From an uncultured Clostridia bacterium (GTDB lineage: Bacteria > Bacillota > Clostridia > Oscillospirales > Butyricicoccaceae), in assembly GCA_945947915.1 (NCBI GenBank), contig CAMEZQ010000002.1:1-64000 (forward strand): a stretch of DNA of 64,000 nucleotides. Direction: 5' to 3'. A model generated the notes under the pieces. The model saw only the letters and a list, made by a program, of their open reading frames with translations, did not search any database and was not told the DNA's origin. This document shows positions 14,525 through 16,023 of this stretch, piece by piece (position 1 is the first letter of the stretch; each line of letters starts with the position of its first letter). The position numbers and the translations under genes were made by a program.

Positions 14525-14553
14525 TGTTCAAAAAAATTTTTTTGATGTATACT
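14525..14553 (+). promoter_or_regulatory. Promoter of the AEC transporter
   Basis: TGTTCA (14525-14530), a 17-base A/T-tract spacer and TATACT (14548-14553) with an upstream TG. The A7T7 run in the spacer is notable. Confidence 0.55.
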
Positions 14554-14589
14554 AAGTCTGGTTTAAAAAAACGATATGAGGTGATCAAC

Positions 14590-15531
14590 ATGTCCGTCTT
14601 TGGCGCATTCAGCGGCATCTTCACGATCTTTCTGCTTTTCGCGGCCGGATTTCTGGCCACAAAGCAAAAGGTTCTGACGCCCGAGCATTACGCCTTCTGC
14701 ACCAAGCTGCTGACCGGCTATGCCATCCCGGTGCTGCTTTTCGAAAACGCCACCCGCAACATGACCCTTTCTTTCATCCGGGAAATGGGCCTGCTGCTGC
14801 TTGTCCCCTTCGCTGTGCAGATCCTTTCCTTCGGCGTTGCCATTCTTTCGGGAAAGCTCTTCCGCATCGAGGAAAAGCGCCGCGGCGTTTTTACCGCCAT
14901 GTTCAGCATGGCCAACACCATCTTCATCGGCCTGCCGGTCTGCACCGAGATCTTCGGCGACGCCGGCACGCCCTACGTCATGGCCTTTTATCTGGCCAAC
15001 ACCACCTGCTTCTGGATGCTGGCCGTTCCTCTGCTGGCCCGGGACGGCAGCGGTGAAGCTCCTTCCATGCTCCAGCGCCTGAAGAATTCCTTCTCCAAGC
15101 AGGTGCGGGGCTTCCTGCTGGGCTCGGTAGTTGGTCTGCTGAGCATTCCCCTGCCCGGCTTTCTGCTCAGCGCCGCCAAATACATCGGCAATCTGACGAC
15201 GCCGCTGTCGGCCATGATGGTCGGCCATCTGTTCGCCACCATGGGCAAGGACGCTTTCCGCACCGATAAGCTGGTGCGCACAGCCCTGGTGGGCAAATGC
15301 CTGATCTGCCCGCTGCTGGCCGCCGGCCTCTGCCTGCTGCTGGGCGTGCCCCAGCTGGCCGCCGGCGTCTTTATCGTGCTGAGCGCCATGCCGGTCATGA
15401 ACCAGACGGTCATCATGGCCAGCCAGTACGGTGCCGACGACCGAGCCGCCGCCAAGGGTCTGGCCCTCTCGCTGATCTGCTGCATGGCCTGCATTCCGGT
15501 CATTGTCGCCCTGGTCAGCACCCTTTATTAA
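14590..15531 (+). CDS. AEC (auxin efflux carrier) family transporter
   Basis: 313 aa from ATG 14590 with GAGGTGA upstream. It has ten predicted membrane helices in two halves of five, typical of the AEC fold, including an N-terminal GIFTIFLLFAAGFLATKQ and the ANTIFIGLP motif in the middle. Bacterial AEC proteins export organic acids such as malate or other small anions; the substrate cannot be assigned. Single-gene unit followed by the structured repeat region rather than an ordinary terminator. Confidence 0.87.
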   Translation: MSVFGAFSGIFTIFLLFAAGFLATKQKVLTPEHYAFCTKLLTGYAIPVLLFENATRNMTLSFIREMGLLLLVPFAVQILSFGVAILSGKLFRIEEKRRGVFTAMFSMANTIFIGLPVCTEIFGDAGTPYVMAFYLANTTCFWMLAVPLLARDGSGEAPSMLQRLKNSFSKQVRGFLLGSVVGLLSIPLPGFLLSAAKYIGNLTTPLSAMMVGHLFATMGKDAFRTDKLVRTALVGKCLICPLLAAGLCLLLGVPQLAAGVFIVLSAMPVMNQTVIMASQYGADDRAAAKGLALSLICCMACIPVIVALVSTLY

Positions 15532-15566
15532 CAGATATTTCCGGCCTCTTTAAACGCGGAACACCG

Positions 15567-15850
15567 CGATCTACTCGCCGGAAATCTATGGAATCTGTGG
15601 GGACCCCAAGAGGATCCTTGGGATCCTCGCGCAAGCGCGCTTTTGCGCTCCGCCGGCAGTCCGGCGTCGATTTTCGGCGATCTACTCGCCGGAAATCTAT
15701 GGAATTTGTGGGGACCCCAAGAGGATCCATGGGATCCTCGCGCAAGTGCGCTTTTGCGCTCCGCCGGCAGTCCGGCGCCGATTTCCGGCGATCCACTCGC
15801 CGGAAATCTATGGAATTTTGGGGGACCCCAAGAGGATCCATGGGATCCTC
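15567..15850. repeat. Tandem 111-bp palindrome-rich repeat, two full copies and one partial
   Basis: Copies run 15567-15677, 15678-15788 and 15789-15850. Copies 1 and 2 differ at 5 of 111 positions. Each unit contains several stem-loops. One at each junction pairs GATTTCCGGCGA with TCGCCGGAAATC. One pairs GAGGATCC with GGATCCTC, one GCGCAA with TTGCGC, and one CGCCGG with CCGGCG. Most copy differences fall in loops or keep pairing through a G-U pair. The partial third copy ends by closing a 14-bp inverted repeat (15825-15855 region). No ribosome site or family supports the open frames that cross it on both strands. Confidence 0.92.
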
Positions 15851-16023
15851 TTGGGGAGATGCATCTCCCCTATTTCAAGTGACGGCCGGCCTTTCGGCCG
15901 CTGCCGGCCATCACCTATTATCTACAATATGCCGCGCCCCCGGCCGGTGACACTGCATACCTGCATACCGCGCGGCCCATTCTTTAATCTTTTCAAGAAT
16001 CATTACACAAGGAGCTTACGACC
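15851..16023. other. Structured remainder of the intergenic region before rpe
   Basis: After the repeats comes an 8-bp palindrome GGGGAGAT/ATCTCCCC (15853-15870), then GGCCGGC/GCCGGCC-type hairpins at about 15883-15909. The last 100 bases hold the AAGGAG ribosome site of rpe. No convincing promoter was found for rpe here. Confidence 0.5.

Follow-up and report, generated by a model that had tools for sequence, protein, structure and literature searches.

We conclude that the 111-bp repeat in the window, the whole 64,000-nucleotide stretch of DNA analysed here, is a worn tandem copy of a dispersed family of tiny non-coding hairpin elements, sited at gene 3′ ends in one bacterial family of the gut, that is apparently undescribed in the openly licensed literature, and the element family, rather than the window locus, is the finding. 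Its members have conserved base pairing and a position after the stop codon, include copies with a duplicated gene end and with an arm (a′) complementary to sequence (a) at the point P where the duplication begins, and occur as lineage-specific insertions. We consider it probable that the family comprises small non-autonomous mobile elements and that the window array is a decayed, tandemly expanded member.

The hairpin family and its array in the window

Across loci the elements are built in one order. Hairpin 1 is often GCGC-loop-GCGC and hairpin 2 often CGCCGGCAGTCCGGCG; hairpin 3 (GATTT...AAATC) is followed by a linker resembling TATTGAAT, the motif GGGGnCCCC and a variable closing hairpin whose end is often GGGGAA. 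The core, which contains the first three hairpins, spans 87 positions and is preceded mostly by ACGG or GCGG. A search with a single unit returned the array's three copies; its other matches, in this genome and in those of congeners, were weak and partial. A covariance model built from 12 copies matched 16 copies in this genome and 4–73 in six congeners (E ≤ 0.01), the 73 being in G006, a genome that is 98% complete. Of 87 family genomes, 39 had model matches, in some cases a weak and solitary one, and an order sample gave matches in 27 of 394 genomes at E ≤ 1e-4, of which 12 lie outside the family with 1–5 weak matches each. The named carriers are uncultured Clostridia or Oscillospiraceae MAGs. 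When the genome collection was scanned with a near-exact pattern no match was obtained; a looser core pattern yielded 14 stretches, all from MAGs, and the agreement among separate MAG assemblies argues against an artefact. No Rfam family matched the element at gathering score. Carriage by phages or plasmids was considered and rejected, since the phage, plasmid and viral collections held no similar sequence at the sensitivity used.

In the window, the array starts directly after the stop codon (15531) of a 329-aa ORF on the + strand (14542..15531), read in the preliminary description as a putative AEC-type permease, and rpe lies about 170 bp further on. Tandem Repeats Finder reported a repeat at 15566-15850 with a period of 111, 2.6 copies and 95% matches, which bears out the earlier claim of two full copies and a partial third. 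Together with the inverted repeats, this places on the + strand a first unit of 111 bp (15566..15676), a second of 111 bp (15677..15787) and a partial third of 63 bp (15788..15850). The five differences that had been counted between the first two units are exactly 15595/15706 (C/T), 15618/15729 (T/A), 15636/15747 (C/T), 15667/15778 (T/C) and 15674/15785 (T/C), and the partial unit differs from the second at 3 of 63 positions. The 12-bp stem said to span each junction is perfect at 15780-15808; at 15669-15697 it includes one U-G pair. The partial copy had also been described as ending where a longer inverted repeat is completed; such a repeat exists (15826-15839 with 15843-15856, 14 bp, perfect), and it closes six bases beyond the end that had been assigned. 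It forms the complete closing hairpin (15826..15856, + strand, 14 bp, 3-nt loop, inverted repeat I4) and is the 3′ end of the array.

Read as family members, all on the + strand, the copies begin with a 5′-truncated one at 15532..15628. It retains a remnant of hairpin 3 (15532-15545 with 15577-15590, inverted repeat I5), a closing hairpin without its outer pairs (15604-15628) and a weak covariance-model match (15522-15607, 13.9 bits). Complete core A (15635..15718; model R1, 88.7 bits, E 1.3e-26) consists of hairpin 1 (15637-15648), hairpin 2 (15651-15666), hairpin 3 (15669-15697), the linker and GGGGACCCC, and its closing hairpin (15715-15739) is missing the outer pairs. Complete core B (15746..15829; model R1, 88.6 bits, E 1.4e-26) repeats this order with hairpin 1 at 15748-15759, hairpin 2 at 15762-15777, hairpin 3 at 15780-15808, the linker and GGGGACCCC. 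The region folds far better than its dinucleotide shuffles (z −9.65), as is expected of any palindrome array. No duplicate of the upstream gene end was found at the window array, where the repeats are those of the array itself. The array is best read as an old, 5′-truncated and tandemly expanded family member with no recognisable gene-end duplicate left; short-period arrays like it also occur in G059.

Two frames cross the array, one of 108 aa in antisense (15515-15841, strand −) and one of 217 aa in sense (15297-15950), and automatic annotation could call both of them genes. Despite these frames, a coding reading of the 37-codon unit was rejected, in agreement with the preliminary description, because changes in relatives track base pairing and not codons. 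Nearby, a 39-bp tandem repeat (15307-15385, 2 copies, 77%) lies within the upstream gene, and a weak match to the Collinsella-1 RNA (15853-15964, strand −, 16.6 bits against a curated threshold of 35) lies just downstream of the array.

Duplicated gene ends and the complementary arm

Direct repeats across the element were found at 54 of 108 copies in a first set, with thresholds picked after inspecting the data, compared with 5 of 320 mismatched pairings; some of these repeats are tandem element copies. A second set, fetched after the pattern had been noticed in the first, gave 17 of 63 copies against 0.3% of controls. Under stricter placing, 46 of 164 distinct copies from both sets have a direct repeat, with a median of 54 bp and a range of 21–133 bp. 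Most copies, the window's included, have neither a direct repeat nor a strong arm. With ORFs assigned by length and position, the repeats are mostly the last codons of the upstream gene: they start at a point P within it and finish close to its stop codon, no more than 6 nt away in 28 of 38 cases.

Between the two copies of a gene end, 2.0% of first, 2.3% of second and 18.1% of third codon positions differ. Third positions hold 119 of 147 mismatches, and 116 differing codons are synonymous and 18 non-synonymous, in pooled counts that retain a few element-to-element repeats and so dilute the contrast. At three loci (L080, L293 and L295) the stop codon itself differs between the copies at the same place, TAA versus TGA. 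Given the synonymous differences and the stop-codon swaps, both copies therefore appear to have a past as working gene ends.

A conventional account would have an ordinary insertion generate a target-site duplication of long and variable length, after which the repeats would undergo gene conversion and the gene copy would take in alleles from other strains, with the synonymous differences arising after insertion. In its favour, the differences between copies are patchy, one gene's downstream copy retains segments common to another species (L129 and L148), both nusA copies carry codons specific to G002, and the YPAL element makes variable duplications of 3–26 bp (PMC2229807). However, a non-coding downstream copy should change at all codon positions, and the 81% of mismatches seen at third positions far exceeds the 45% or so expected on a rough estimate (p 4e-19). 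Moreover, repeats that are identical or nearly so also reach the vicinity of the stop codon (L113, L140, L149 and L157). We regard ordinary insertion as doubtful on this balance.

Filled and empty sites were found in congeners, with gene names such as nusA and dnaJ assigned by reading the protein. The nusA unit is present in G002 and its site is empty in the six other congeners; the dnaJ unit, flanked by identical 53-bp repeats, is present in G006 and the site is empty in G000, G001 and G003, the other congeners with a readable gene end. In two orthologous gene pairs (L149/L158 and L178/L180), both members have elements but P differs from one species to the other, and gene ends have therefore been hit repeatedly. 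In another gene two species share the same P and a third has the element after the stop. Housekeeping genes such as nusA, dnaJ and era have elements at their ends. Compared with G004, the upstream nusA copy differs at 27% of codons, like the gene body (24%), and the downstream copy at 55%. This pattern makes it harder to hold that the upstream copy is foreign in every case, and would also be compatible with reversible excision, with the import of alleles or with gene conversion.

The arm a′ lies within the insert, directly before hairpin 1, and is complementary to sequence across P, so that the a/a′ pairing straddles the start of the repeat. Arms are about 9–18 nt long. Those with a score of at least 10 were present in 31% of copies and 1.7% of controls in the first set, and in 29% and 1.3%, respectively, in the second. 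Copies whose P is fixed by a direct repeat include 25 strong arms, of which 20 overlap P; we estimate that chance would give about 3. There is a weak base preference at P, with A at −4 (24/46), G at −2 (27/46) and A at −1 (21/46), and T occupies position 0 in just 1 of 46. Mismatches between gene-end copies show a weak rise near P.

Base pairing and the nature of the folded strand

The preliminary description had proposed a comparison with relatives and a covariation test, and the outcome was strongly positive. Among 124 matches in the first set, both-side changes occurred in 22 of 23 pairs and 96.7% of cells pair, values reached by 0 of 500 shuffles; the 83 matches of the second set, mostly loci new to the analysis, gave 23 of 23 pairs and 92.6%, with both alignments fitted to the covariance model and the counts thus biased towards it. 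When the partners were slid by 1–3 columns, the covariation score, about 0.5 in register, fell to at most 0.10. The pairing-preserving changes noted earlier in the window came from two tandem copies alone, which is thin evidence, and it is the covariation among relatives that makes the strong case.

G-U pairs make up 29 of 2,347 pairs in element stems (1.2%, hairpin 1's outermost pair set aside), compared with 28 of 369 (7.6%) in the stems of 17 tRNAs from the same loci. Element stems commonly show exchanges of the GC-to-AU type but hardly ever the GU pair that would lie between the two. This rarity of G-U pairs makes folded DNA more likely than a selected RNA, and we infer that DNA hairpins, or copying of one arm from the other, would account for it better than RNA would.

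These data also bear on the possibility that the elements are immobile, cis-acting RNA or 3′-UTR structures kept for regulation as stabilisers, terminators or processing sites. The strongly conserved pairing would suit such a role, as would the position of about 41 of 96 copies, which lie no more than 40 nt after the end of a sense ORF. We nevertheless judge it improbable given the G-U deficit, a closing hairpin without a terminator U tail, the lack of an Rfam match, some copies lying antisense to the nearest gene end (L085) and the gene-end duplicates, which regulation does not account for. The suggestion of a terminator array finds no support in the window either, where the array contains a single weak terminator-like site. 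What survives of the earlier reading as a selected structure or non-autonomous mobile repeat is that the element is selected, non-coding and most like a non-autonomous mobile palindrome; REP proper and a terminator array lack support, and RNA is the less likely form. The dispersed family, the synonymously differing gene-end duplicates and the target-complementary arm had escaped that reading.

Proposed mobile unit and comparison with known systems

A complete unit would consist of the gene 3′ end from P to the stop codon, followed by arm a′, hairpins 1–3, the linker and the closing hairpin. We propose that this stretch, bounded by P and the far edge of the closing hairpin and the simplest unit to fit the data, may enter the gene at P in the form of folded single-stranded DNA, and that a′ may base-pair with the cut site much as the guides of IS200/IS605 elements do; this single-strand and guide step, taken alone, is tentative. 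The gene would then receive an in-frame end from the unit, and its previous end would be displaced downstream or come back into use after excision. In the window, copies would have recombined to give the 111-bp tandem, leaving the original gene-end duplicate no longer recognisable. It is conceivable, at a similarly low level of confidence, that the family is a gene-free homing element of about 0.15–0.2 kb guided by base pairing, a folded single-stranded DNA that uses its 9–18 nt arm to locate the matching gene end in another cell and delivers a synonymously different working end. In housekeeping genes, such an element might behave as a natural gene drive on a small scale. Several points count against the mobile unit: no enzyme was found, the named carriers are MAGs, most copies have neither a direct repeat nor a strong arm, each new gene site needs a new arm that the model does not account for, and the nusA upstream copy looks native and the downstream copy odd, the opposite of simple import of a foreign end. 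Enzyme-free template switching at strong hairpins during replication is very unlikely. In this scenario a growing strand whose 3′ end lies near the stop would fold back on itself, use the inverted arm as template, go on to copy an element from elsewhere and return near P. It could operate in the identical dnaJ case, where AAAAGC at the repeat end can anneal as a primer to GCTTTT of the arm region, with the copied arm directly after it, but it leaves the base preference at P, the stop-proximal repeat ends and the synonymous divergence unexplained.

YPAL/RU-2 of Yersinia is the nearest described kind found and REP is also close, and the present family departs from both in defining features. YPAL/RU-2 is about 170 bp long and not A+T-rich, has internal inverted repeats, targets sites at or beside dyad symmetry with variable duplications, and is known from empty and filled sites (PMC2229807). 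The present family is like it in size, in not being A+T-rich, and in internal inverted repeats, variable duplications and empty and filled sites. As regards dyad symmetry at the target, the a/a′ pairs do straddle P, with a′ itself belonging to the insert. It differs, by description rather than by sequence, in duplications of 21–133 bp (median 54) that mostly end near stop codons, in the synonymous differences between duplicates and in the target-complementary arm. REP elements are 20–50 nt long, follow a tetranucleotide such as GTAG and are tied to the Y1 enzyme TnpAREP (PMC8266576). The likeness lies in extragenic palindromes of many copies that are likely mobile as single-stranded DNA; in contrast, the core here has 87 positions and mostly ACGG or GCGG before it. 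A Y1 transposase (PF01797) was absent from G000–G003, G005 and G006 and within the genus was found only in G004. With Y1 missing in six of seven genus genomes, and palindrome length and tag also differing, a reading as REP proper was not sustained, and a REP/RAYT or IS605 Y1 enzyme was rejected as the mover.

In IS608, of the IS200/IS605 group, the 4 nt immediately 5′ to a hairpin act as a guide and base-pair with the cleavage site, and inserts carry tnpA (PMC5934647). The elements described here likewise have, in a subset (20 of 25 strong arms), a guide-like arm 5′ of a hairpin and complementary to P, a likeness of geometry and not proof of cleavage. They differ in the arm of about 9–18 nt, in the gene end lying between cut site and arm, and in the lack of TnpA/TnpB in high-copy genomes. 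TnpB (PF07282) was absent from all seven genus genomes, and homing guided by TnpB with recoding near P was rejected on this ground and on the weakness of the mismatch rise there. Reverse transcription by a group II intron, retron or DGR was rejected because RVT_1 (PF00078) is lacking in high-copy genomes, being absent from G006 and from G002–G005. No special tyrosine recombinase stood out, and the widely shared ones look Xer-like by eye. A MITE was set aside because the repeats are 21–133 bp rather than short and fixed and because the 5′ side is gene-specific, so that the ends, on reading, are not inverted copies.

Integrative elements and islands that enter gene 3′ ends are kilobases long, carry an integrase and use one target; they re-supply the host gene end and displace the old one. 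The present family shares with them insertion in the gene 3′ end, a gene end re-supplied by the insert and an old end that is moved, and is unlike them in being about 0.15–0.2 kb, non-coding and present at many genes.

If the proposed unit is correct, gene-free bacterial elements would enter housekeeping genes harmlessly, each insertion supplying a working gene end. A site apparently chosen by base pairing would be a new route of mobile-DNA targeting and a possible natural model for programmable insertion, and in gut metagenomes the elements would be a source of spurious small ORFs and of broken contigs.

Several further loci show elements beside other features. At tRNA genes, the duplicate at L135 appears to contain the tRNA 3′ end and terminator, and at L021 and L012 the closing hairpin fuses with a terminator-like palindrome beside the tRNA. 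Elements at L085, L083 and L160 adjoin convergent amidohydrolase-like genes, and the closing hairpin at L085 appears to include the stop codon of the antisense gene. At L148 an FMN riboswitch (L148:235-346, 113.7 bits) lies upstream of a RibU-like gene with an element at its 3′ end, and orthologues of this gene in two other species also carry an element.
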